NCBI RefSeq assembly: GCF_001400735.1
Contig: NZ_LJPW01000157.1
Location: forward strand, 1-64,000
Source: Pseudomonas caricapapayae
Lineage (GTDB): Bacteria; Pseudomonadota; Gammaproteobacteria; Pseudomonadales; Pseudomonadaceae
Direction: 5' to 3'
DNA length: 64,000 bases
This document shows positions 46,907 through 61,566 of this stretch, one piece after another. The position numbers and the translations under genes are program-made. Below the pieces are notes generated by a model that was given only the letters and a program-made list of their open reading frames with translations, did no database searches and was not told the DNA's origin. Position 1 is the first letter of the stretch, and each line of letters opens with the position of its first letter.

Positions 46907-48118
46907 GTGCGCGTCACGAACGCGCTTCGTCCCACTCAACAATGCCTCGCGGCGCCGGTGTACCATGTCAGTTCTTTTTCGCCCCGGGATGTGGCTGCCA
47001 TGCGTGAGTTTCTTGAGGTTTTTCGTAATCGCGCACTGGATGTCATGTCATCGGCTTTGCCTGCCGAGTCGCTTCTTGAAGATTTTGCCCTTGCACTGCA
47101 GGCCAGATTGCCTGGCGTGATCGTCGGCATCAATGTGCTGGACAAGGCCGGCAGAACATTTCGCCAGTCTCTTTTTCCGAATCTTCCCTCCGGGTTTTCT
47201 CAAGCCCTGACGGGCAACATCATTACCGGCAAGCATGGTTCCTGCGGGCTGGGCATCCTCAACGGGAAAACCATCGAGGTGCCCGAAGTGGCCACCGACC
47301 CGCGCTTTTCACCAGAGTGGAAAGCGCTGTTCGCCAGGCATGACCTGAAATCGATGATTTCGATACCGGCACTGAGTGCTGATGGAAGTGCACAGGGGAG
47401 TGTCGCCGTCATTCATCCTTACGGGATGTCGTTTACCGCTGAACAGCGCGACTTTCTCCAGTCGGCCTCGTCGCTATGCGCCACTATCTGTGCGTACAGC
47501 AGGTCGCAGGAGTCCAGCAAACTGATGCTGGGCGAGCTTGAACACCGAATTCGCAACCTGTTTCTGACCATTGGCGGGGTGGCCAATCTGACCATGAAGC
47601 GCTATCCGGAGCCGGTACAGTTCAGGGCGGTCTTCGGTGAACGGCTGGTGATGATGCACCGGGCGCATTCGCTGGCATTGAGCACCAGCGAAATCGACAT
47701 GGTCATGCTGATTCAGGAAATGCTCGCGCCTTATCGAACAGACTGCAGCATCCATTTCTCGGGCCCCGATATTCTATTGACTCAGGAGGCGGCCTCGGCG
47801 CTGGCGCTGGTCGTACACGAGCTGGGCACCAATGCTGCCAAGTACGGCGCACTGTCTCAACCCGGTGGAGAGCTGAACATCGAGTGGTTGATCGTGGCGC
47901 AGGGTGTCGATGATCTCGATGCCACGTTCAAACTGATGTGGACCGAGCGCAACGGTCCGCTGGTTGAGCAGCCGGATCGAAAAGGCTACGGCACGGCAAT
48001 GATCAAGGGCAGCCTGAGCAATGCGTTTGATGGTGTGGCGACGTTCTTCTATGAACCCTGTGGCGTGAAGTGCGAGATATCTGCACCGTTCACCGGGAAA
48101 CTGGGCAAAAGCAACTGA
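46907..48118 (+). CDS. GAF-domain HWE/HisKA_2-type sensor histidine kinase
   Basis: This roughly 403-residue soluble kinase has a GAF domain (about 50-200), a phospho-acceptor region ELEHRIRNLF with H213, and an HWE-family ATPase domain with HELGTNAAKYG (304-314) and LMWTERNGP. HWE kinases in this group are often involved in light, stress or general signalling with a separate response regulator. None is adjacent, so it is an orphan. GAGGA precedes GTG 46907; a later ATG at 47000 is the alternative start. Confidence 0.82.
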   Translation: MRVTNALRPTQQCLAAPVYHVSSFSPRDVAAMREFLEVFRNRALDVMSSALPAESLLEDFALALQARLPGVIVGINVLDKAGRTFRQSLFPNLPSGFSQALTGNIITGKHGSCGLGILNGKTIEVPEVATDPRFSPEWKALFARHDLKSMISIPALSADGSAQGSVAVIHPYGMSFTAEQRDFLQSASSLCATICAYSRSQESSKLMLGELEHRIRNLFLTIGGVANLTMKRYPEPVQFRAVFGERLVMMHRAHSLALSTSEIDMVMLIQEMLAPYRTDCSIHFSGPDILLTQEAASALALVVHELGTNAAKYGALSQPGGELNIEWLIVAQGVDDLDATFKLMWTERNGPLVEQPDRKGYGTAMIKGSLSNAFDGVATFFYEPCGVKCEISAPFTGKLGKSN

Positions 48119-48132
48119 TCGGAATGAGTACG

Positions 48133-48819
48133 TTATGCCTCATGCCGCCGCCGCGCATCGCTGAGCATGGATATCGTCAGTTTGCGTACTTCGAGCTTGC
48201 TGATTTCCACATGAGAGCGCAGCAATAACAGTGCTTCGTCCCGTTTGCGTGCCTGCAACGCATTGAGGATCGCAGCGTGCTCGAGGTAGGTGTGTTCGAT
48301 ACGGGCACTTTTGAAGAAGTCCAGTCTGCGGACGATGCGGATACGCTCGGTCACTTCCTGATGAACACGGGCCATTTCCAGATTGCCCGAGGCGGCCACC
48401 AATTGAGTGTGAAACTGTTCGTCCAGGTCTGCGACGACTTGCATGTCGATCTGCCAGCAATCGCGATCAATCAGCCAGTGCTGGCGCAGAACATTGAGCT
48501 CCGGATGCACCTCGTGGGACGCACAGATGCGCTCGACCGCAGCGCATTCAAGCACGATGCGCAGGTCGTACAGCTGGTCGATCTGGTCGAAATCCAGCGG
48601 TTTGACTGACCACCCCCGGCGAAACTCGACGTCCAGATAACCCTCGCGCTGAAGCCGGTACAACGCGTCACGCACCGGCGTCCGCGAGACCTGATAACGA
48701 TCTGCCAACTGCGTTTCGGTAAACCGGTCGTAGGGCAGCAGGTAGAAATCGAAGATCTCCTGCTTGAGGCGGCGATAGACGTCTTCTGCCAGCGCATTGG
48801 TGGTGTTCGGGGAATTCAA
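48133..48819 (-). CDS. GntR/FadR-family regulator of the ureide operon
   Basis: This 228-residue protein has a GntR winged helix (about 10-75, with QLADRYQVSRTPVRDALYRLQREG) and a helical FCD ligand domain (about 90-220) that usually binds a carboxylate, often with a metal held by histidines. It is the last gene of the operon and overlaps the preceding gene by 4 bases. It probably represses the unit by binding near its start (candidate palindrome at 58133-58144) and is released by a pathway intermediate such as allophanate; that ligand is inferred. Confidence 0.88.
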   Translation of the reverse strand: MNSPNTTNALAEDVYRRLKQEIFDFYLLPYDRFTETQLADRYQVSRTPVRDALYRLQREGYLDVEFRRGWSVKPLDFDQIDQLYDLRIVLECAAVERICASHEVHPELNVLRQHWLIDRDCWQIDMQVVADLDEQFHTQLVAASGNLEMARVHQEVTERIRIVRRLDFFKSARIEHTYLEHAAILNALQARKRDEALLLLRSHVEISKLEVRKLTISMLSDARRRHEA

Positions 48820-49211
48820 GGGCGTGGCTCCAGGCTGCTCAGGTCAATGCTGACATGTGCTGCAACGACTTTCCAGCCGCCATCCAGTCGCGCCCAGGTC
48901 TGCATTTGCCGTCCCAGCCGCCGGGTAGCATCCTCGTGAAACTCGGTACTGACGGTGGCGAAGTCTTCGCCGAAGGTGCTCACCACGGTGCGCAATAGTT
49001 TTCGACCAGGCCCGACCGGTTGGCACTCACGTCGATAGCGCGCAATGGTTTCGGCACCGTGCAGGTTTTCCGCTACGCCATAGCGAACGGTCTGCTCGGA
49101 ATTCCAGAAGTACGCGTCCAGCGTAGTCAGTTCGTTGGCGAGCAGGGCGCGCTCGTAATCGATGAAGGCGTTGGTGACTTCGGCGACGACGTGGGGAAGA
49201 TTGATGTCCAT
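48816..49211 (-). CDS. AtzH/HpxZ-like NTF2-fold protein
   Basis: This 131-residue protein belongs to the DUF3225/HpxZ-AtzH group with a SnoaL/NTF2-like fold (NAFIDYERALLANELTTLDAYFWNSEQTVRYGVAENLHG). Relatives sit beside AtzE/AtzG or Hpx oxalurate genes and are thought to act on small carboxy-ureides. It is encoded between a cysteine hydrolase (1-base overlap) and the GntR gene. A role downstream of biuret or a carboxylated ureide fits the context, but activity is not proven. Confidence 0.8.
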   Translation of the reverse strand: MDINLPHVVAEVTNAFIDYERALLANELTTLDAYFWNSEQTVRYGVAENLHGAETIARYRRECQPVGPGRKLLRTVVSTFGEDFATVSTEFHEDATRRLGRQMQTWARLDGGWKVVAAHVSIDLSSLEPRP

Positions 49212-49888
49212 TACGGTGTACTCCTCGTTTGTAAAGCCCGCTGCAGATCAGCCAGAGACGCTGCCCGTCCGACAATCGCGTTTTGTGCGGTGATCATCTC
49301 CAGCGTGGCCTGCTTGAAGGCCGGGAAATAGCTTTCGGTGGCATCCTCGATCAGCAGACAGCGATAGCCCCGGTCATTGGCCTCACGCATGCTGGTCTGC
49401 ACGCAGACTTCGGTGGTTACACCCGCGAAGATCAAATGGGTGATGCCCGCTTCGCTCAATCGCTGATGCAGATCGGTGGCGAAGAACATGCCCTTGCCGG
49501 GTTTGTCGATGACCCACTCGCAGGCAAGCGGGGTCAGGCTGTCGATAATCTGATTGCCGGGTTCGCCGCGGATCAGGATACGTCCCATCGGGCCGGGGTC
49601 GCCGATGCGCAGGCCGGGTGAACCGTGGTCGAGTTTGGCTGGCGGGCAGTCGGCAAGGTCCGGGCTGTGTGATTCGCGGGTATGGATCACTGCTATGCCC
49701 TGATCACGGGCCAGTGCCAGCAGTCTTTGCACCGACGGCACAATGGCTTGCAACAGTGCGACATCGTTGCCCAGCGCGGCACCGAAGCCGCCGGGCTCAA
49801 GGAAGTCGCGCTGCATGTCGATGATCACCACAGCGGCACAGGACCTGTCGAACGTGAAACTGTCCGGACGCGCATTGACGCTGATCAT
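49211..49888 (-). CDS. Second cysteine hydrolase, BiuH-like (isochorismatase superfamily)
   Basis: This 225-residue hydrolase has the superfamily catalytic triad D24 (VIIDMQRDF), K129 (IDKPGKG) and C162 (GVTTEVCV). It shares with the BiuH in the same operon the unusual stretch [19 protein letters not shown] and [17 protein letters not shown], so it is a close paralogue rather than a nicotinamidase. It overlaps the ATPase gene by 4 bases. The substrate is probably another ureide: triuret, carboxybiuret or a substituted biuret are candidates. This is inference; the difference from BiuH around the active-site mouth would decide. Confidence 0.85.
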
Positions 49889-51420
49889 GCCGATTCTCCG
49901 GTCAGATGCTCGGCACCGGCCATGTATCGACCCAGCTCGGTTCGATCAGCGGTCGCCGCGCGGGTTTCGAAGACCAGTTCGCCGTCATGAATCACGACAA
50001 TGCGGTCTGCCAGGCTCAACAGCTCGTCGAGGTCTTCGCTGAGCAACAGCACTGCCGTGCCGCTGTTGCGCGCGTCGATCAGGCGCTGGTGGATGAGGGC
50101 GACACTGGCGAAGTCCAGGCCGAACACCGGGTTGGCGACGATCAGTACAGCGACATCACGGGTCAGTTCGCGGGCCAGGACGGCGCGCTGCACATTGCCC
50201 CCGGACAAGGTGCCGATCGGTCGGTCCGGGTCGTTGGGCGACACCTGAAACTGTTCGATCAGTGCGCGTGCCTGTGCGCCTATGGCACGGCGATCGAGAC
50301 GCCAGCCCTGACGGCACAAAGGCGGCCGGTCGAAGTTGCGCAGGGCCAGGTTGTCGGCGACGCTGAAGCTGCCGATGCAGGCGTTGCGCAAGGGTTCTTC
50401 GGGCAGGCTGAAGACACGCAGGCGCTGCATCTCTTCACGCCGTGCATGGTAGGGCTGGCCGTTGACCGATAGCCGTCCGGCGCTGAAAGAACGCTGGCCG
50501 AGCAGCGCTTCGGTGAGTTCGCGCTGACCGTTGCCGGAGATGCCTGCCACTCCGACGATTTCTCCCGGATGGACCGCCAGAGAAAGGTTTTTCACTGCCA
50601 GCGTGCCTTTGTCACCGGGCACATTCAGCGCCTCCATGTGTAACTGAGGTGGGCGGGGTGCCATCTCCGGGCGTTCGCTGCTCACGCTACGCACGCGCGC
50701 TTCGCCCATCATCCAGGCCGCCATTTGCTGCGTAGAGATGTCAGCCACTGCTGCCGTCCCTACCCAACGCCCCTTGCGCAGCACGGTAACGTCATCGGCA
50801 TAGGTGCTGACTTCGCGAAACTTGTGGGTAATCATCAGCACCGTGATGTCGCCGCGATGCGCCATCGACTGCATCAGCCCCAGCACCTCATCGGCTTCCT
50901 GCGGGGTAAGCACCGAAGTGGGTTCGTCGAGAATGATCAGCCGACGTTCCAGATACAGCTGCTTGAGAATTTCCAGCTTCTGCTTTTCACCTGCCGCCAG
51001 GCTGCTGACGGGGCGATGGATATCCAGACGAAAAGGCATCGTCGCCATGAACGCTTCAAGGCGTTCGTGCTCGCGGGTCCAGTTGATACGCCACGGCAGA
51101 TCGCCGCGCGACAGCACCAGGTTTTCAGCCACGCTCAGGCCCGGTGCGACGGTGAAATGCTGATACACCATGCCGATCTGCAACTGATGAGAGTCGCGCG
51201 GAGTGTTGATGGCATGCTCGCGATTGTTGACCAGAATACTGCCCGATTGCAGCGGGCTGTAGCCGATGATGCCTTTGACCAGCGTGCTCTTGCCGGCACC
51301 GTTCTCGCCGAGCAGGGCGTGAACGGTGCCGGCGCGGACCTTGAACGATACCTCGTCCAGTGCGCAAAACGTGCCGAAATGCTTGCTGACACCAATCGTC
51401 TCAAGGCTCGGGGCGCGCAT
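49885..51420 (-). CDS. ABC importer ATP-binding protein, nucleoside/BMP type (two NBDs)
   Basis: This roughly 511-residue protein carries two ATPase domains in tandem, as in RbsA/YufO-type importers. The first has Walker [10 protein letters not shown] and Walker [11 protein letters not shown]. The second has a degenerate P-loop-like [10 protein letters not shown] and [16 protein letters not shown]. It powers the two permeases encoded upstream and pairs with the BMP binding protein. It starts at 51420 or 51426, overlapping the biuH stop. It makes the operon self-sufficient for uptake. Confidence 0.9.
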
Positions 51421-51422
51421 GC

Positions 51423-52109
51423 TCATGCTCCCAACAGGTCGCGAAGCATGGAGGAGTGGCCGACTGCACCGAATACTCCGCCCTGCATCTTGACCATGCT
51501 CAGTGCCGCCGCATGGTTGGCAGGATCGGTCGCACCGCAGCAGTCCTCCAGCAGCAGGCATTCAAAGCCGCGGTCATTGGCTTCGCGCATCGTGGTGTGT
51601 ACACAGACATCGGTGGTGATGCCGGTCAGGATCAGGTTGTCGATGCCGCGTGTGCGCAGGATCAGTTCCAGATCGGTAGCGCAGAAGGAGCCTTTGCCGG
51701 GTTTGTCGATAACAATTTCGCCGGGCACTGGTGCCAGTTCGTCGATGATCTCCCAGCCCGGTTCGCCGCGTACCAGGATCTTGCCGCACGGGCCGGGGTC
51801 GCCGATGCCGGCACCGATGCGTTGCGAGCGCCAGCGTTTGTTGGCAGGCAGGTCACTGAGGTCCGGACGGTGACCTTCGCGGGTATGGATGATGGTAAAT
51901 CCGAGCGGGCGCATCGCGGCCAATAGTGCCTTGATCGGCTCGATGGGCGCGCGGGTCAGCGCCAGGTCGTACCCCATGCTGTCGACGTAACCACCGACGC
52001 CGCAGAAGTCGGTCTGCATGTCGATCACGATCAGCGCAGTGTTGTGCGCATGCAATTGCCCGTTCCAGGGCCAGGGGTAGGGGGCCGATGCAATATGACG
52101 TTCGCTCAT
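51423..52109 (-). CDS. biuH: Biuret hydrolase (biuret amidohydrolase)
   Basis: This 228-residue cysteine hydrolase converts biuret to allophanate and ammonia. It resembles the characterised Rhizobium BiuH over its full length: [51 protein letters not shown] and GGVFGAVG. The catalytic triad D30, K136, C169 corresponds to D36/K142/C175 of that enzyme. It is 4 bases after the formamidase and is followed directly by the ATPase gene. AtzF, at the head of the operon, consumes its product. Confidence 0.92.
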
Positions 52110-52113
52110 GGCA

Positions 52114-53130
52114 TTACTCCTTCCAGCTGCAGGGTGCAGGCTTGAACTCACGCTCAGGCGCGCTAAAGCCACAGGCGCTGCCGTCGGTATGCATGACATC
52201 GTCTTCCCAGGGCAGACGGTACTGGCCTGCGCTCAGATCGTGCATGTAGGTGTAAGGACAGTCGCGTGCGCCGCCCTTGACCGCCACATAGCCGCGATGC
52301 CCGAATTGATAGATGTTGTTTTCCACGCCCCAGTGCACGCGGGCTTCGCGGACCAGATCGGGGCGCAGTTCACAGCAGACGATTTCGTCGGCCCGGCCAC
52401 CGCCTTCGGCCATGACCGTACCGTCGAAGTCGACAAACATGGCCTCGCCCATGGAGTCGAATGTGCCGTCGGAGCCGCACATGCAGACGCTCGCGGTCTG
52501 CATGAGGTTGGTGAAGGCGTTGCTCTGATTGGTGATTTTCCAGGCGTGGCGAATCGGCGCGGTGTACCCCGCAGTGCGGAGCATGATATCGGCCCCCTTG
52601 TAGGCGCACTCGCGGGCCATTTCCGGAAACATGCCATCGTGGCAAATGATCAGGGCCAGCTTGCTGCCGCGCGGGCCGTCGCACACCGGAATGCCCAGAT
52701 CGCCAGGTTCCCACGGCTCGACCGGCACCCACGGGTGCAGCTTGCGGTAGTAGAGGCGAATCTCACCGAGGTCATCGACGATCAGGCCACTGTTGAATGG
52801 ATTGCCGTGGGGGTTGGCCTCCATGATCGAGAAGCAGCCCCATATCCGGTGCTCCTGACACGCCTGACGCAGCGCCATGACTTCCGGCCCGTCGAGGCTG
52901 CACATGATCTCCGGGGCGGTGCTCATGGACAGACCGTGCAAGGAATATTCAGGAAACACGATCAGGTCCATGCCCGGATTGCTGCGCCGCGCCTTGGCGA
53001 CCATGCTGACCACTTTCTGCGTTTGTGCCCACAACGCCTCGCGGGTATGCGGATCGGGCAGCGCCAGTTGCGCCAGGCCGATCACCACCCCATTGGGCGA
53101 CTTGTTCAAACCGCCAAGACCACTGGCCAT
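52114..53130 (-). CDS. amiF: Formamidase (AmiF type, nitrilase superfamily)
   Basis: This 338-residue nitrilase-superfamily amidase matches AmiF formamidases ([53 protein letters not shown]). The catalytic Glu-Lys-Cys set is E61, K130 and C163. It hydrolyses formamide to formate and ammonia. The ATG at 53130 is chosen by AGGAGG at 8 bases; an ATG at 53136 is too close. Its place inside a biuret operon suggests that formamide, or a formylated ureide, is made by or taken up with the pathway's substrate. Confidence 0.88.
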
Positions 53131-53156
53131 GTGCATGCCTCCTCGAAAAGATCAGT

Positions 53157-54077
53157 TCATCGCGTCAGGCTGAGTTCGCCAGGAGCACCGTTCAGGGTGC
53201 GTCCACGGCGGCAGGTGGCGTACATCACCACCAGCGTCAGCGCATAAGGTGTTGCTGCGAACAGGTAATAACCGGAGCTGATGCCCACCGCTTGCAAGGC
53301 CGGGCCGATGGCACCGGCAGCGCCGAACAGCAACGATGCCCACAGGCACGCCAGTGGACGCCAGCGGGCAAAGATCACCAGCGCCACGGCCATCAACCCT
53401 TGTCCGCTGGACAGGCCTTCATTCCAGCTGCCGGGATAGTAAAGGGACAGGTAGGCACCGCCGATCCCGGCCAGCCCGCCGCCAGTTGCCGTGGCCAGAA
53501 TGCGTACCTTGAGCGGTCGATAGCCCAGCGCCTGGGCCGTTTCGCCATGATCACCGACCAGGCGCAACATCAACCCCCAGCGCGTTGCGCGCAGCCCCCA
53601 GTGCAGGATGAACGCCAGCGCTACGCCGACGAAGAACAGCACATTGATGTTCAGCGCCGAGCGCACGCGTTCTTCGTTGCTCCAGGCTCCCAGTGCCAGT
53701 GAGGGCAACATGGGGGCTTGCGGCTGAATGAAGGCTTTGCCAAGAAAAAACGCCAGCCCGGTGCCGAGCAGAATCAGCGCGATGCCGAATGCGATGTCGT
53801 TGACCCGTGGCAACGAGCATGCAAGGCCGTGCAGCAGCCCTAACAGAATGCCGACTCCGGCGGCTGCGCCGACGCCCAGCCATGCCGAACCGCTCAGGTA
53901 CGCCACGGCGTACCCAGACATCGCGCCGGCAACCAGAATGCCTTCCAGCCCCAGGTTGATCCGTCCGCTTTTCTCGGTCAGGCATTCGCCCAGGCTGACG
54001 AACAGAAAAGGTGTACCGACGCGGATCGCGCCAGCCAGTAATGCCAGCAGAAAAGTGCTCAGGTCGATATCAGCCAT
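53157..54077 (-). CDS. ABC importer permease, nucleoside/BMP type (second)
   Basis: This roughly 306-residue inner-membrane permease has about 8-10 transmembrane helices and the family sequence RVGTPFLFVSLGECLTEKSGRINLGLEGILVAG at the start. It matches YufQ/RbsC-like permeases of nucleoside importers. The ATG at 54077 overlaps the end of the first permease by 8 bases; a longer reading from 54149 is not supported. With the other permease it forms the channel for the BMP-delivered substrate. Confidence 0.9.
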   Translation of the reverse strand: MADIDLSTFLLALLAGAIRVGTPFLFVSLGECLTEKSGRINLGLEGILVAGAMSGYAVAYLSGSAWLGVGAAAGVGILLGLLHGLACSLPRVNDIAFGIALILLGTGLAFFLGKAFIQPQAPMLPSLALGAWSNEERVRSALNINVLFFVGVALAFILHWGLRATRWGLMLRLVGDHGETAQALGYRPLKVRILATATGGGLAGIGGAYLSLYYPGSWNEGLSSGQGLMAVALVIFARWRPLACLWASLLFGAAGAIGPALQAVGISSGYYLFAATPYALTLVVMYATCRRGRTLNGAPGELSLTR

Positions 54078-55179
54078 GTTGCAGCGCTCCTTTCCCCGCA
54101 GGCGCGCTGACGGCCGCCAGCCTGATCTTCCAGGCAGCGATACGGCCACTCAGGGCTTCCCAGAGCAACAGGTTGGTGAACAGCAAGCCTTCAAGAATCA
54201 GCGTGGTGGCGTCCGGCAGGCCAAGCCGTCGTTGCAGCAGCCCGCCACTGGCTTCCAGCCCGCCAAGCAGTACCGCGCAAACGATGATTGCCAGCGGATG
54301 ATGGCGTGCGGCGAAGGCGACAAGAATGCCGCTGGTGCCATAACCTGCAATCAGCGCGGCGTTGGCGCTGCCTTGCACGGCAGTGACTTCGAACATTCCG
54401 GCCAGACCCGCCGCAGCACCGCCCAGCAGACAACTGAGCAGAATCAGACGGTCTACCGGCAGGCCGATCATCAATGCCGTGCGAACATTGCCGCCCACCA
54501 CGGCGAGGGCAAACCCCTTGATACTGTGGCGCACCAGCACATACGCCAGCAGGCAGGCTGCCACGCCTGCCACCAGACCCCAGTGCACTTCAAGGCTTTC
54601 GCTGATGGTGCCGATCAGATAGGGCTCGTCCAGCGGCGGGGTCGAGGGCTTGTTCAGGCTTGCCGGATCGCGCAATGGTCCTTCGACCAATTGCCGGAAC
54701 AGCGCCAGCGCAATATACGAAAGCAGCAGGCTGCTGATGGTTTCGTTGACCCCGCGGCGCTGGCGCATCCAGCCACTCAGGCCGATCCACAACGCGCCCA
54801 CGGTCATCGCCGCCAAGGCCATGCAGACAAGCATCGGCCCGGATGACAACTGGCCGAGCCACAAGGGCGTCACTGCCGCTGCCAGGCCGCCCAGCACCAG
54901 CGCGCCTTCGCCGCCGATGATGATCAGCCCGGCCCTTGCCGGCAGGGCGACGCAGAGTGCGGTCAACATCAACGGGGCTGCGCGCTGCAAGGTGTTTTCC
55001 AGCGCGAACCATGAGCCAAACGCGCCTTCGCCGACCAGTTGCAGGGCTTGCCACGCAGGCTTGCCCTGAACCGCCAGAAACAGACCGAACAGCACGCACG
55101 AAGAAAACACCGCCAGCACCGTCGGCAGTCCCGGCAACAACGCGCTGGCAAGGCGGCGCAGACTTCTCGATGAACTCAT
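54070..55179 (-). CDS. ABC importer permease, nucleoside/BMP type (first)
   Basis: This 369-residue permease has about 10 transmembrane helices with RAGLIIIGGEGALVLGGLAAAV in the first half and RTALMIGLPVDRLILLSCLLGG further on, as in YufP-like permeases. It lies 9 bases after the binding-protein gene and overlaps the second permease by 8 bases. Confidence 0.9.
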   Translation of the reverse strand: MSSSRSLRRLASALLPGLPTVLAVFSSCVLFGLFLAVQGKPAWQALQLVGEGAFGSWFALENTLQRAAPLMLTALCVALPARAGLIIIGGEGALVLGGLAAAVTPLWLGQLSSGPMLVCMALAAMTVGALWIGLSGWMRQRRGVNETISSLLLSYIALALFRQLVEGPLRDPASLNKPSTPPLDEPYLIGTISESLEVHWGLVAGVAACLLAYVLVRHSIKGFALAVVGGNVRTALMIGLPVDRLILLSCLLGGAAAGLAGMFEVTAVQGSANAALIAGYGTSGILVAFAARHHPLAIIVCAVLLGGLEASGGLLQRRLGLPDATTLILEGLLFTNLLLWEALSGRIAAWKIRLAAVSAPAGKGALQHG

Positions 55180-55188
55180 GAACGTCCC

Positions 55189-56298
55189 TCAGAGCTGGCC
55201 AAGCACGCCTTCGACCAGGTAATTCATGCTCTCCAGAGCAATGTCGGTCTGGCCTTGTGCGACGCCATCGGCAATCACCACGGCCCCTTTGTTGTCCTTG
55301 AGCGGGCCTTTGAAAATCACGAACTGGCCCGCCATCATCTGCGCCTTGATGGCATCTGCTTTCTGCCTGGCGTCGGCTGTTACCGCAGGCCCGTAGGCAG
55401 ACGTTTTGACGAAGCCTTCCTTCAGCCCGCCGCGCAAGAAGTTGATCATCGGCGCGCCGCTCTGGGCTGCCGCGACGTGAGCACGATAAGGCGTCTCCCA
55501 GTTCCACTCGGCGCCGGTCAGGTAGCCCTTGGGAGCCAGCGCAGCCTGGCTGGCGTGATAGCCACAGGTCATGACGCCGCGTTTTTCAGCCGTTTCGACG
55601 ATCACCTTGGGGCCGTCGACATGGCAGGTCAGCACGTCACAGCCCTGGTCGATCAAGCCGTTGGCCGCTTCCGCTTCCTTGACCGGCAACGACCAGTCGC
55701 CGGTGAAGATCACCGTGGTGACAATGCTCGGGTCGACCGAACGGGCCCCCAGGGCGAACGCGTTCAGGTTGCGCAGCACTTGAGGCACAGGTTTGGCGGC
55801 GACGAAACCAAGTTTTTTGCTCTTGCTCATGTGTCCGGCAATCACGCCGTTGAGGTATTGCGCTTCGTCGATGTAACCGAAAAAGCTCCCCGCATTCATC
55901 GGGTCGCGACCTTTCTGCCACAGACCACCGCAGTGCGCGAAACGTACGTCCGGGTACTTTTTCGCGACCTTGACCACGTGCGGCTCGAAGTAGCCGAACG
56001 AGGTCGGGAAAATCAGCGTTGCACCGTCCTGACGGATCATGGCTTCCATGGTCTTTTGCACGGCCACCGTTTCCGGAACATTTTCCTCTTCAATCACTTT
56101 GACGTTGGGCAGCGACTTGATGATGGCGGCCGCCTGGGCGTGTGCCTGGTTGTAACCAAAGTCGTCGCGAGCACCGACGTAAATGAAACCCACCACCAGC
56201 GGGGCATCGGCTGAGTAGGCGCGACCAAAAGGCAGCGCCGCACTCAGGCCGATAATGCCTGCCAACTTGATGAAACTGCGACGATCAACGTTCGACAT
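55189..56298 (-). CDS. BMP/PnrA-family substrate-binding protein
   Basis: This 369-residue periplasmic binding protein has an N-terminal twin-arginine signal (DRRSFIKLAG at 5-14, hydrophobic stretch to about 30). The BMP/Med/PnrA fold follows, with VGFIYVGARDDFGYNQAHAQAA and HCGGLWQKGRDPMNAGSFFGYI. Relatives bind nucleosides, but those in ureide operons are thought to take biuret, urea-like or purine-derived substrates. It lies 15 bases after atzF. Tat export implies that it folds in the cytoplasm first. Confidence 0.88.
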   Translation of the reverse strand: MSNVDRRSFIKLAGIIGLSAALPFGRAYSADAPLVVGFIYVGARDDFGYNQAHAQAAAIIKSLPNVKVIEEENVPETVAVQKTMEAMIRQDGATLIFPTSFGYFEPHVVKVAKKYPDVRFAHCGGLWQKGRDPMNAGSFFGYIDEAQYLNGVIAGHMSKSKKLGFVAAKPVPQVLRNLNAFALGARSVDPSIVTTVIFTGDWSLPVKEAEAANGLIDQGCDVLTCHVDGPKVIVETAEKRGVMTCGYHASQAALAPKGYLTGAEWNWETPYRAHVAAAQSGAPMINFLRGGLKEGFVKTSAYGPAVTADARQKADAIKAQMMAGQFVIFKGPLKDNKGAVVIADGVAQGQTDIALESMNYLVEGVLGQL

Positions 56299-56313
56299 GC
56301 CTACTACCCCTGA

Positions 56314-58131
56314 TCAATGAGCGATGGAAGATGTGTGCGCGGCGCGGTAGGCGCGCCAGCCTTTGTAGTCGGTGATGTCCAGCGCGCCCTCAAGGCCGCC
56401 AGGCTCACAGATGAAACCCTTGACCCACTGGCCATCGGCCAATTGCAGCGAGCCGATGCCCAGTGGTGCGGGAATGGCCGCGACGAAAGCGCCGAACTGG
56501 CTCAGTGGCATTTCCCAGACTTCTATCTCGATGCTCGCGCCCTGTTCAGCTACGCGCACCAGTCCCGGCTTCGGCGGCGACGTTTCTGCCAGCGCATACA
56601 GGCGGTAATCCGCGCTGGTGGTTGTGGTGCGCAGTAAACGTGCGCCGCCTTCGAGCAATTGCCAGTTGAGTGGCTGGCCAACGAGGTGTGCACCGACCAC
56701 CGCAACCTGCACAGTGGGGCTGTTATAGGGCAGGGGAGCCATCGCCACGGCGTCACGCTGGTCAGCCTGGCCGAACAGCGGCTGCCAGGCAGCGGCGATC
56801 TCTGCCAGGCGCTGATCGGCACCGGCCGGGCCAATCAGCGTGATGCCCGCAGGCAACCCGTCGGCACGGCGCTCTGCCGGGATGGCGATGGCGCACATGT
56901 TCATCAGGTTGACGAAGTTGGTGTAATAGCCGAGCTGTGAGTTGAGTGCGACCGGATCGCCTAGCACCGCGTCGATGGTCGGCATGCACGGCGCGGTCGG
57001 CACCACCAGCACGTCGATGTCGGTCAGCAACTGCTGCGCAGCGCGGGTCAGTTCTGCCAGGCGATAGCGAGCGTTGAACGTGTCTACTGCATCGAACGAA
57101 GCAGCACTTTGCAGAATACCGCGTACCACCGGGTGAATATCGGCTGCATTGGTCGTGAAGAACTTGCCTGCCGCTGCACGCCGTTCGGCCACCCACGGGC
57201 CTTGATACAGCAGGGCAGCCGCCTCGGCGAAGACGTCGAACTCGACCTGGCTGACAGTCACCAGCGGGTCGTTTTGCAGGGCTTCCAGGGTTTTGAGATA
57301 AGCCGCCTTTGCCTGCTCATCACCGAAGAACTCACAGTGTCGCGCGACGGCGACACGCCGGACCCTGCGCTGCACCGGCAGTGCCGACACGGCCACACTG
57401 GCCGGATCGAGAGGGTCGTAAGCCGCGATAACCTGCGCCACTTGCCAGGCTTGCAGCACATCCCCGGCAAATATGGACGGGCAATCCAGCGTCCGGCAGG
57501 CGGGCACCAGTCCCCGGCTGCTGAACAAGCCAAGGCTGGGTTTGAGCCCGACGATGCCGTTGAAACCGGCAGGTACCCGGCCTGACCCTGCGGTGTCCGT
57601 GCCCAGCGCAAAGCTCACATAGCCGCGCGCGACGGCCACTGCCGAGCCTGAGCTCGATCCGCCGCTGACGTAGGCAGGGTCGTGGGCATTGCGCACCGCG
57701 CCGTAGGGCGAACGGACGCCCACCAGGCCCGTGGCAAACTGATCGAGGTTGGTCTTGCCCATCAGGATCGCGCCGCTGTCGAGCAGCCGCTGGACGACGT
57801 GAGCCGTCTCCTTGGGCACGTAGGCGAAAGCCGGACACGCAGCTGTCGTGGGGATTTGCGCCACGTCGAAATTGTCCTTGACCGCAAACGGCACACCGAA
57901 CAGCGGCAGTCGCTCATACACCGAATCGCCGAGTTCGCTGGCAATGCTCTCCAGCGTTTTGGCCCGGTCCAGCAGCATGGGAAGAGGCACGCGATGAATC
58001 CAGACCTCTGCCCGGTCATCCGCGTCAATATGCGCTGCCAAGGTTTGCACAAGTGTCGTCAGGGTAGTCTGGCCTGAACGTAACGCCGACTGAAGTTGAG
58101 AAATGTCGAGTGCGGTCATGGTGGTGTTCAT
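56314..58131 (-). CDS. atzF: Allophanate hydrolase, AtzF type
   Basis: This 605-residue protein has an amidase-signature N-terminal domain (about 1-450) and an extra C-terminal domain (about 480-600), as in AtzF. The Ser-cisSer-Lys set is K85, the serines of GGSSSGS (157-163) and nucleophile S183 in TDTAGSGRVPAG. It hydrolyses allophanate to ammonia and CO2 (via carbamate), completing biuret use begun by BiuH. It heads the operon. Two starts are possible, 58131 and 58119; neither has a clear ribosome-binding site, and the palindrome touches the first. Confidence 0.92.
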   Translation of the reverse strand: MNTTMTALDISQLQSALRSGQTTLTTLVQTLAAHIDADDRAEVWIHRVPLPMLLDRAKTLESIASELGDSVYERLPLFGVPFAVKDNFDVAQIPTTAACPAFAYVPKETAHVVQRLLDSGAILMGKTNLDQFATGLVGVRSPYGAVRNAHDPAYVSGGSSSGSAVAVARGYVSFALGTDTAGSGRVPAGFNGIVGLKPSLGLFSSRGLVPACRTLDCPSIFAGDVLQAWQVAQVIAAYDPLDPASVAVSALPVQRRVRRVAVARHCEFFGDEQAKAAYLKTLEALQNDPLVTVSQVEFDVFAEAAALLYQGPWVAERRAAAGKFFTTNAADIHPVVRGILQSAASFDAVDTFNARYRLAELTRAAQQLLTDIDVLVVPTAPCMPTIDAVLGDPVALNSQLGYYTNFVNLMNMCAIAIPAERRADGLPAGITLIGPAGADQRLAEIAAAWQPLFGQADQRDAVAMAPLPYNSPTVQVAVVGAHLVGQPLNWQLLEGGARLLRTTTTSADYRLYALAETSPPKPGLVRVAEQGASIEIEVWEMPLSQFGAFVAAIPAPLGIGSLQLADGQWVKGFICEPGGLEGALDITDYKGWRAYRAAHTSSIAH

Positions 58132-58132
58132 T

Positions 58133-58144
58133 CATGTATACAAG
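58133..58144. promoter_or_regulatory. Candidate GntR operator at the head of the biuret operon
   Basis: The 8-bp perfect palindrome TGTATACA (58135-58142) in CATGTATACAAG lies 3 bases before the first possible atzF start. FadR/GntR FCD-type repressors often bind TTGTATACAA-like sites. Read leftward, the same TATACA could serve as a -10 element. Confidence 0.5.
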
Positions 58145-58342
58145 ATGAACTGACGCGTTTGCACGTTACGGGCCAAGGTCAGCCTGAGGGCGATTTACGG
58201 CGGGATTACTGGCTATTGGCAGGGCATTGCGTGGCAGTGGTGCGTCATGTTTGCGCTTGAACGTGCCTGCGTGCACAAAGATAGGTCATGTCAGCCGCAG
58301 GGCGAATATCTCGACCTGCGACCGATATTAAATGCAGGTTTC

Positions 58343-60136: not shown

Positions 60137-61566
60137 TTACAGCTCTTTCTTCAGGTGCTTCTCGATCTGCTCAAGCGACTTGCCTTTGGTTTCCGGAAGG
60201 CACAGGAAGACAAATATCAGTGAGCCGACATTGATGGCCGCGAAGATGAAGAACGTCGGGTTGCCGATGGTATCGACTGCAATCGGGAAAGTGAATGCCA
60301 CCGATGCGTTGAATAACCACTGCATTGATACGGCTGTACCCGTCAGCAATCCTCTTACCTGCATCGGGAACAGTTCCGACATCAGCAGCCAGTACACTGG
60401 CGAGATGCACATCTGCATGAACAGCAGGAATACCAGAATGCAGGCGAGGGCAGTGTAGCTCTGGGTCAGGTTCTGCGGCATGAATTGCAACACGCAACCC
60501 AGCGCTCCAGCGCTGCCTGCATCAGGATGACCATTACCAGCCCGGTCATCAGCAGGTGCCGGCGTCCATAACGGCCAATTGCCCAAATGCCGAGCAGGGT
60601 GGCGATGACCGATACCACACCGTTGCCGATCGTGGCCGTCAGCGCGGCGTTGGTGCCCATGCCGGTATTCTTGAGGATGATCGGCGTGTAATACATAAAG
60701 GCGTTGACGCCTGTGAGCTGGGCGGTAAAGCCCAGACCAATGCCGATCAGCAGCAACTTGATGACCCAGCCCTGACGCAGCAACTCTCTGGCTTTCGGGC
60801 GATGGCGAGCTTGCTCGTCCTGCGCTTTCATCTCGTCCACTTCGCGCTGTGCATCTTGCTTGTTGGTACGCAGTTGCTCCAGTACGTCCTGCGCTTCATC
60901 GAAGCGACCTTTGGAGGCCAGCCAGCGCGGCGACGGTGGTACGAAGAACGTACCGACCAGCAGCAACACGCCGGGCACCGTGGCAATGGCCAGCATGTAA
61001 CGCCAGATTCCCGGTGTATGCAGCAGCGCAGCCATGACCGCACTCAGTACGTAGGCAAGCAGCTGGCCGCTGACGATCATCAGTTCATTCCGGCTGACCA
61101 GTCGCGCACGGCGTGACGGCCCCGCAATTTCGGCGATGAACACCGGCACCGTTGCCGAGCCTCCACCCACCGCAATACCCAGCAGGAAGCGCGCAGCGAC
61201 CATGAACGGAATGGATGGCGCGATGGCCGTGCCCAGTGCGCCAGCGATGAACAGCACCGACAGTAGACGCAACGTCAGGCGACGCCCGAAACGGTCGGAG
61301 ATGTAGCCGCTGGCAAGCGAGCCAAATGCAGCGCCAACGATCAGTGAAGCCGTGATCATCCCCTCGCTGTAAGCATCCAGACCCAGCCCGCCCTGATCGG
61401 CGGGTAGCGTCATGAACGGCAATGCACCGGCGATGATACCGGTGTCATATCCGAACGCCAGGGCACCCATGGTTGCCACCAGCACAGAGATAAAGATGAG
61501 TCGATTCGGTGAAGCGCTTTGCCGACCTTGCTGATCAGCCGCTGCTGAGGTGCTACTTGAAGACAT
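60137..61566 (-). pseudogene. Frameshifted sugar-porter MFS transporter
   Basis: Two leftward frames make one transporter. The first (61566 to about 60510) gives TM1-10 with the sugar-porter motifs RFGRRLTL and GRYGRRHLLMTGLVMVILMQAAL. The second (about 60510 to 60137) continues with GCVLQFMPQNLTQ and the C-terminal PETKGKSLEQIEKHL. One base seems to be missing in GCTGGAGCGCTGG near 60505-60512; adding a G restores the reading GALGCVLQF. Intact members (XylE/GalP-like) have about 470 residues. It is either inactivated or mis-sequenced. Confidence 0.8.

Follow-up and report, generated by a model that had tools for sequence, protein, structure and literature searches.

The window analysed here, a 64,000-nucleotide stretch of Pseudomonas caricapapayae DNA (contig NZ_LJPW01000157.1 of assembly GCF_001400735.1, which totals 6.26 Mb in 193 contigs), contained ten minus-strand genes between positions 48133 and 58131 that are predicted to serve the uptake and degradation of the ureides triuret and biuret. 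In the order of transcription the genes were atzF, bmp, permease 1, permease 2, amiF, biuH, an ATPase gene, trtA, atzH and gntR (Table 1); with its putative promoter included, the unit reached to approximately position 58175. The nine junctions were overlaps of 1, 4, 4, 4 and 8 bases and gaps of 4, 9, 15 and 20 bases. An earlier reading of this DNA, made without database searches (hereafter the sequence-only reading), had described ten tightly packed leftward genes with gaps of up to about 26 bases; the packing was as described, and the stated gap is an upper bound on an actual maximum of 20. Much of the gene order was also found in other genera, so the arrangement is not a product of chance. 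The ten-gene operon was confirmed as real at the level of its genes.

The operon was compared with 80 related loci, the best 80 of at least 583 confirmed loci ranked by likeness to the TrtA of the window; because they were chosen as the most TrtA-like, fractions of these loci are not unbiased. The genes bmp, permease 1, permease 2, biuH, the ATPase gene and trtA formed one run in 64 of the 80 loci (the core operons). The remaining 16, in which these six genes were not scored as a single same-strand run, were excluded: a contig end interrupted some, and in two (L033 and L066), both with amiF, biuH and the ATPase gene were 3 kb apart. Non-pathogenic relatives with a similar operon included Stutzerimonas stutzeri KOS6 (L010) and Halopseudomonas oceani (L008).

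Table 1. Genes and regulatory elements of the predicted triuret/biuret operon, in window coordinates.
Feature	Position	Strand	Evidence
atzF, allophanate hydrolase (amidase and AH_C domain)	56314..58131	-	TIGR02713, 812 bits (cut-off 511); PDB 4gyr/4gys
bmp, BMP-type periplasmic binding protein, twin-arginine-like signal	55189..56298	-	Pfam; PDB 6pi5 (AtzT), 3s99
ABC permease 1 (BPD_transp_2)	54070..55179	-	Pfam
ABC permease 2 (BPD_transp_2)	53157..54077	-	Pfam; start codon (ATG) at 54077 lies within the end of permease 1
amiF, formamidase (nitrilase superfamily)	52114..53136	-	NF009803, 567 bits (cut-off 406); PDB 5g3o, 2dyu; Glu-Lys-Cys motifs
biuH, biuret amidohydrolase	51423..52109	-	NF050097, 418 bits (cut-off 370); PDB 6azo; BiuH residues at 14/14
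ABC ATPase, two nucleotide-binding domains	49885..51426	-	Pfam, NCBIfam
trtA, predicted triuret hydrolase	49211..49888	-	PDB 6xix/6xj4 best; TrtA residues at 13/14 checked positions
AtzH/HpxZ-like protein (DUF3225), candidate carboxybiuret decarboxylase TrtB	48816..49211	-	162 bits (cut-off 135); pocket residues; neighbours
gntR, GntR-family (FCD) regulator, TTG start	48133..48819	-	Pfam
Putative sigma-54-type promoter element TGGCCCGTAACGTGC, variant of TGGCAY-N6-TGC	58161..58175	-	Position conserved in relatives
Palindrome CTTGTATACATG, probable GntR operator, downstream of the promoter and upstream of the atzF start codon	58133..58144	-	Rarity; upstream regions of relatives

Pfam and NCBIfam models with curated cut-offs backed the family labels of nine genes in the sequence-only reading. 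BiuH and AtzF were both encoded as proposed, their products passing NF050097 and TIGR02713. The label that fell was that of the second BiuH-like hydrolase (49211-49888), which scored 239 bits against NF050097, below the 370-bit cut-off. Among solved structures this protein matched 6xix best (299 bits), followed by the BiuH of Rhodococcus (6xjm, 207 bits) and of Rhizobium (6azo, 189 bits). The 6xix and 6xj4 structures are of the Herbaspirillum triuret hydrolase, for which residue roles and six positions of consensus difference between TrtA and BiuH have been given (PMC7948467). The catalytic residues D24, K129 and C162 and the substrate-binding residues E72, K132 and Q202 were all present, and the TrtA residue was found at five of the six discriminating positions (F35, N41, E160, Y187 and I205). 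These five were identical in all 120 aligned sequences, the window included. The neighbouring protein (51423-52109) carried the BiuH residue at all six, with Y, Y, D, T and V where TrtA has F35, N41, E160, Y187 and I205. The failed BiuH model, the closest structure and the residues together excluded a second biuret hydrolase; by its sequence the 49211-49888 product is TrtA, with triuret hydrolase as its predicted activity. Its closest counterpart outside this genome was from P. cerasi (89% identity) among the matches listed, where very near genomes may be missing.

Herbaspirillum TrtA converts triuret to carboxybiuret and ammonia; the carboxybiuret decarboxylates in vitro, its half-life being approximately 20 minutes, and an enzyme, TrtB, encoded by a gene that co-occurs with TrtA, is stated to be capable of this decarboxylation (PMC7948467). 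The AtzH-like protein that adjoins TrtA in the window was compared with AtzH of Pseudomonas sp. ADP, for which the roles of the pocket residues, including five arginines, have been described (PMC6219798). It retained Y22, R46, R63, R73, F94, Q106 and Q108, and had cysteine in place of R66 and glutamate in place of R96, leaving three of the five pocket arginines. These two positions were then scored in 73 family members from the loci, with the window and AtzH itself set aside; seven of the 73 came from loci shorter than 5 kb, in which neighbours may be out of view. Neither arginine was present in 34 sequences, 31 of which adjoined trtA and none of which had an AtzE-like neighbour within 2.5 kb. 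Both arginines were present in 24, with an AtzE-like neighbour in 15 and an adjoining trtA in two, and one arginine was present in 15, with no AtzE-like neighbour and an adjoining trtA in three. All three Herbaspirillum loci fell in the class with neither arginine. The window protein, with Tyr22 and Arg46 in place, trtA next to it and no AtzE partner, had the pocket of the trtA-adjoining class. The loss of two positive charges would be a better fit to the singly charged carboxybiuret than to the doubly charged dicarboxyurea of AtzE. The protein thus fits the part of a candidate carboxybiuret decarboxylase, TrtB, and trtB would belong to the AtzH/DUF3225 family.

From its genes, the operon is predicted to be a nitrogen-scavenging unit for triuret and biuret (probability approximately 0.85). 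Triuret and biuret would enter through the BMP-type ATP-binding cassette (ABC) importer. TrtA would convert triuret to 1-carboxybiuret and ammonia, a step shown for the Herbaspirillum enzyme and assigned here from residues, and the AtzH-like protein would release CO2 to give biuret. BiuH would then convert biuret to allophanate and ammonia, and AtzF would convert allophanate to two ammonia and CO2, as is established for both families; the net yield per triuret would be four ammonia and three CO2. As a side branch, the formamidase would convert formamide, either scavenged or formed by the ureide hydrolases from formylated ureas, to ammonia and formate. A unit combining uptake, degradation and regulation for ureides, as the sequence-only reading had it, was borne out by the importer, hydrolase and GntR gene families. 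BiuH and AtzF, which it had named, are there, but the unit is not limited to biuret: with TrtA as one of the hydrolases and an AtzH-like protein that fits a decarboxylase of the intermediate, triuret is most likely the primary substrate.

The nearest solved relatives of the BMP protein were PDB 6pi5 (AtzT) and 3s99, a protein of Brucella with adenine in its model. The ligands of AtzT include guanine and 2-hydroxyatrazine (PMC6834077), from which this BMP branch appears to handle flat nucleobase-like molecules. Of the AtzT guanine pocket, the window protein kept the aromatic sandwich of Y45 and W194 as well as S97 and F98, and had Gln at the position of the guanine-contacting Glu165. Glu was absent from this position in all 82 operon sequences, the window included (63 Q, 8 S, 8 T, 2 L and 1 I). 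Eight of 12 BMP-family control sequences from outside these operons had it, two of the 12 (L059 and L077) being distant and poorly aligned; another BMP protein of the same genome (L197) also had Gln. The change at 165 may point, weakly, to an altered ligand, and a nucleoside-type BMP importer repurposed for a ureide, as had been suggested, is plausible. His226 and Asp228, present in 82 of 82 operon sequences, were tried as a ureide signature and rejected. The N-terminus of the BMP protein was twin-arginine-like (RRSFIK), and a matching motif was found in 54 of 81 operon BMP sequences; this suggests export by the twin-arginine translocation (Tat) pathway, in our view unusual for a binding protein.

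Two putative control elements that the sequence-only reading did not have, a sigma-54-type promoter and a GntR-type palindrome, were added upstream of atzF. A strict sigma-54 element (TGGCAY-N6-TGC) preceded 36 of 59 related operons at a distance of up to 250 bases and occurred in 17 of 4482 background windows of 250 bases taken from the same loci (0.4%); five of the 64 core operons, in which the aligned first-gene start was less than 300 bases from a sequence end, were skipped. A relaxed form was found within the same distance in 40 of 59 operons vs 281 of 4482 background windows. Within 500 bases the relaxed form occurred in 41 of 60 operons (window included), compared with 5.1% for shuffled sequence and, for the reverse strand, 4 of 60; four of the 41 sites lay more than 400 bases upstream and are probably due to chance, and at some loci the first gene was wrongly assigned. 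By chance the relaxed pattern turns up often in the window (37 matches vs 21.6 expected in 64 kb), where the single copy is not significant, so the promoter claim rests on its conserved position. The palindrome CTTGTATACATG, in the form TTGTATACAW, occurred once in 64 kb (0.01 expected). Of 60 upstream regions, that of the window among them, 12 contained its core; within 250 bases the core was found in 10 of 59 vs 2 of 4482 background windows. Sites of FCD-type GntR regulators resemble such palindromes, and we infer that the GntR encoded by the operon binds this putative operator. Under nitrogen limitation, RNA polymerase with sigma-54 and an NtrC-type activator would start transcription at approximately 58175, and a GntR repressor on 58133-58144 would keep the operon off until a ureide is present. 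An NtrC-like palindrome (GCAC-N7-GTGC) was not found upstream of the window operon; five of the 60 upstream regions had one, and no claim is based on it.

In one relative, P. californiensis (L005), atzF was not found in the locus, and the palindrome together with apparent first codons of atzF (by eye) lay upstream of bmp at approximately 3578, which suggests that atzF was lost there.

The amiF product cleared the formamidase model and carried the Glu-Lys-Cys motifs, which are catalytic in this family; its structural matches 5g3o and 2dyu we take to be AmiF of B. cereus and H. pylori. Among the core operons amiF was found in 34 of 64, in five different slots: between permease 2 and biuH (26), between the ATPase gene and trtA (4), between biuH and the ATPase gene (2), before bmp (1) and between the permeases (1). 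A tree of 57 formamidases, midpoint-rooted for drawing only and with some poorly supported inner forks and two sequences on long branches, had the permease 2-biuH slot scattered across several lineages, with most other slots nested within. The nested copies were a Paraburkholderia/Caballeronia group, one Ramlibacter, one Variovorax and one Bosea; a further nested group comprised four genomes with the formamidase upstream of or beside bmp. The copy of L046, located before bmp, paired with an unlinked copy with weak support and for that reason was not counted as a relocation. The tree is consistent with a formamidase that was relocated inside the operon and retained nearby.

Formamidase and trtA also co-occurred across genomes. 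In the genus sample, formamidase was found in 7 of 298 Pseudomonas genomes (E-value 1e-90 or better), and these same seven carried trtA with an identity of at least 74%; the other seven of the 14 genomes with a trtA match had identities of only 46-50%, at loci that best match BiuH. The class sample held formamidase in 5 of 369 genomes, trtA in 11 of 369 (E-value 1e-70 or better) and both in two; three of the five formamidases (73%, 74% and 45% identical to that of the window) had no trtA near. In the phylum sample, formamidase was found in 13 of 299 genomes and trtA in 29 of 299, with all 13 formamidase genomes among the 29. Hypergeometric probabilities for genus, class and phylum were 2.6e-14, 0.008 and 3.6e-15, uncorrected for kinship and from samples that share some genomes. 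Among the 13, amiF lay inside the biuH/importer run in the window's genome and seven others, 5' of bmp and in its orientation in three, divergent beside gntR-, bmp- and trtA-like genes in one, and alone in one. The formamidase is an optional, repeatedly retained partner of the operon: it was missing from the vicinity of 30 core operons, and just one of those 30 genomes carried amiF elsewhere.

In six genomes (G722, G922, G790, G820, G828 and G875) trtA, 54-57% identical, stood apart from the biuH and importer genes, with the formamidase with or near the latter (L169, L170, L172-L177, L183, L184, L186 and L187).

Several of these observations weigh against the prediction of a nitrogen-controlled triuret/biuret unit with a formamidase. 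At TrtA position 134 (consensus A134) the window had Met, the consensus of neither enzyme; Met was found there in 40 of 120 sequences, the window included, and the substitution A134S in TrtA was not deleterious (PMC7948467). The BMP pocket was weakly distinctive, His226 and Asp228 occurring also in 10 of 12 BMP-family proteins from outside the operons. A strict sigma-54 element was lacking in 23 of 59 related operons; the -24 box of the window, TGGCCC, is a weaker sigma-54 match, shared with its three nearest relatives, and two syringae-group relatives (L005 and L006) have CGGC. The 30 of 64 core operons with no formamidase nearby indicate that this enzyme is not required for triuret use.

What the formamidase contributes may be read in two ways. 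Formamide may be an independent small nitrogen source, its hydrolase sharing promoter and repressor as part of a nitrogen-scavenging cassette, an explanation to which we give an even chance. The clear pass of the formamidase model, the Glu-Lys-Cys motifs and the sigma-54-type promoters, which suggest a general nitrogen-limitation programme, speak for it; on its own it leaves the tight tie to trtA and biuH (13 of 13 in the phylum sample) unexplained, although formamidases with no trtA do occur (three of five in the class sample). The second explanation has BiuH or TrtA deaminating formylurea or formylbiuret. On chemical grounds, attack on the terminal amide would give N-formylcarbamate and from it formamide and CO2, and the formamidase would release formate and a second ammonia. 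Formylurea was the best alternative substrate of TrtA, but at approximately 0.3% of the activity on triuret (PMC7948467, Table 2), which is small. The presence of amiF at five positions in the core operons, the tree and the shared seven Pseudomonas genomes are in keeping with such a branch, whereas the 30 core operons with no amiF nearby and the class-sample genomes with formamidase and no trtA are not. For BiuH, no assay with formylurea was found in PMC5806882, from whose text the word is absent; among the open papers searched it appeared in PMC7948467 only, and no natural source of formylurea was established. We regard this chemistry as a doubtful account of the formamidase, and slightly more doubtful still that the enzyme completes an unrecognised formylurea/formylbiuret branch with substrates possibly derived from oxidised purines and pyrimidines. 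If true, these operons would scavenge a family of oxidised nucleobase fragments, not triuret alone.

A role of the AtzH-like gene in oxalurate catabolism, as HpxZ, is very unlikely: its product scored above the cut-off of the NCBIfam HpxZ model, but no HpxW, HpxX or HpxY name was returned for the ten proteins in the NCBIfam scan, the gene adjoins trtA, and its pocket is that of the trtA-adjoining class, so that the label "HpxZ, oxalurate catabolism" is probably misleading or wrong in trtA operons. Least likely of all is a cyanuric acid or s-triazine operon feeding carboxybiuret into the same route, which would account for what is shared with the atrazine/cyanuric acid system (the families of AtzH and AtzF, and a BMP protein like AtzT), but none of the ten genes was a cyanuric acid hydrolase by Pfam or NCBIfam, and TrtA already supplies carboxybiuret; a genome search for AtzD counts neither way, as its control query matched nothing either.

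The triuret/biuret unit predicted here resembles several described systems. Operons with TrtA, BiuH and AtzF are known from Herbaspirillum and Rhizobium (Tassoulas et al., 2020, JBC, PMC7948467), and that of Herbaspirillum sp. BH-1 and R. leguminosarum 3841 agrees with the window in its TrtA residues (bar position 134), BiuH and AtzF. Three Herbaspirillum loci (L019, L027 and L030) differed from the window in having no formamidase, and none was found in their genomes at an E-value of 1e-80 or better. Nitrifier contigs hold atzF, biuH, trtA and trtB with a BMP-type ABC importer (bmpA-nupABC), and gntR is named in the legend of the synteny figure (mSystems 2025, PMC12625717); these trtA-trtB-biuH-atzF-bmpA-nupABC clusters thus share enzymes and importer type with the window, and the combination of importer and enzymes was already known. 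The cyanuric acid operons atzDGEHF and atzRSTUVW of Pseudomonas sp. ADP share AtzF, the AtzH family and the BMP-type AtzT with an ABC importer. The ADP system uses AtzD and AtzEG where the window uses TrtA and BiuH, its AtzH pocket has five arginines vs three of these in the window, and its regulator is AtzR, of LysR type, compared with GntR in the window. Sigma-54 promoters are described for it (PMC6834077), comparable to the putative ones in the relatives of the window. AmiF formamidases (5g3o, 2dyu) are of the same family with the same motifs; the window copy stands inside a ureide operon.

The sequence-only reading had singled out the formamidase as the under-described part of the operon, and this held: the main texts of PMC7948467 and PMC12625717 do not mention it. 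No description of an operon joining formamidase and biuret hydrolase was found among the main texts searched, which were mostly those of open papers. Likewise, the words rpoN and promoter are absent from both main texts and sigma from that of PMC12625717. No description of a sigma-54-type promoter at triuret operons was found in these papers; a thesis on triuret cited by PMC7948467, with regulation in its title, may hold part of what is treated here as undescribed.

Outside the operon, a GAF-HWE histidine kinase gene on the plus strand (46907-48118) converges on gntR with a gap of approximately 14 bases. Upstream, the Pfam match of a minus-strand major facilitator superfamily gene of sugar-transporter type (60466-61566) ended at 334 of 452; an open reading frame in another frame (60137-60586) overlaps it and looks by eye like its remainder, so the gene (60137-61566) is probably frameshifted. 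Two urease alpha subunit genes scored above the family cut-off elsewhere in the genome (contigs C134 and C127).

The core triuret/biuret pathway with a BMP importer was already published; this analysis adds the assignment of TrtA, the link between formamidase and the operon, the pattern of promoter elements and the arginine signature of AtzH-like proteins. That formamidase recurs points to an additional substrate, the arginine signature offers a way to tell likely enzymes of carboxybiuret type from those of dicarboxyurea type, and the promoter elements predict nitrogen control of the operon. Triuret contaminates urea fertiliser and also arises when peroxynitrite oxidises uric acid (PMC7948467), and biuret is a common fertiliser impurity that is toxic to plants (PMC7700744). 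With such sources of triuret and biuret, the presence of this operon in a plant-associated Pseudomonas is relevant both to nitrogen in soil and to how bacteria live on plants.

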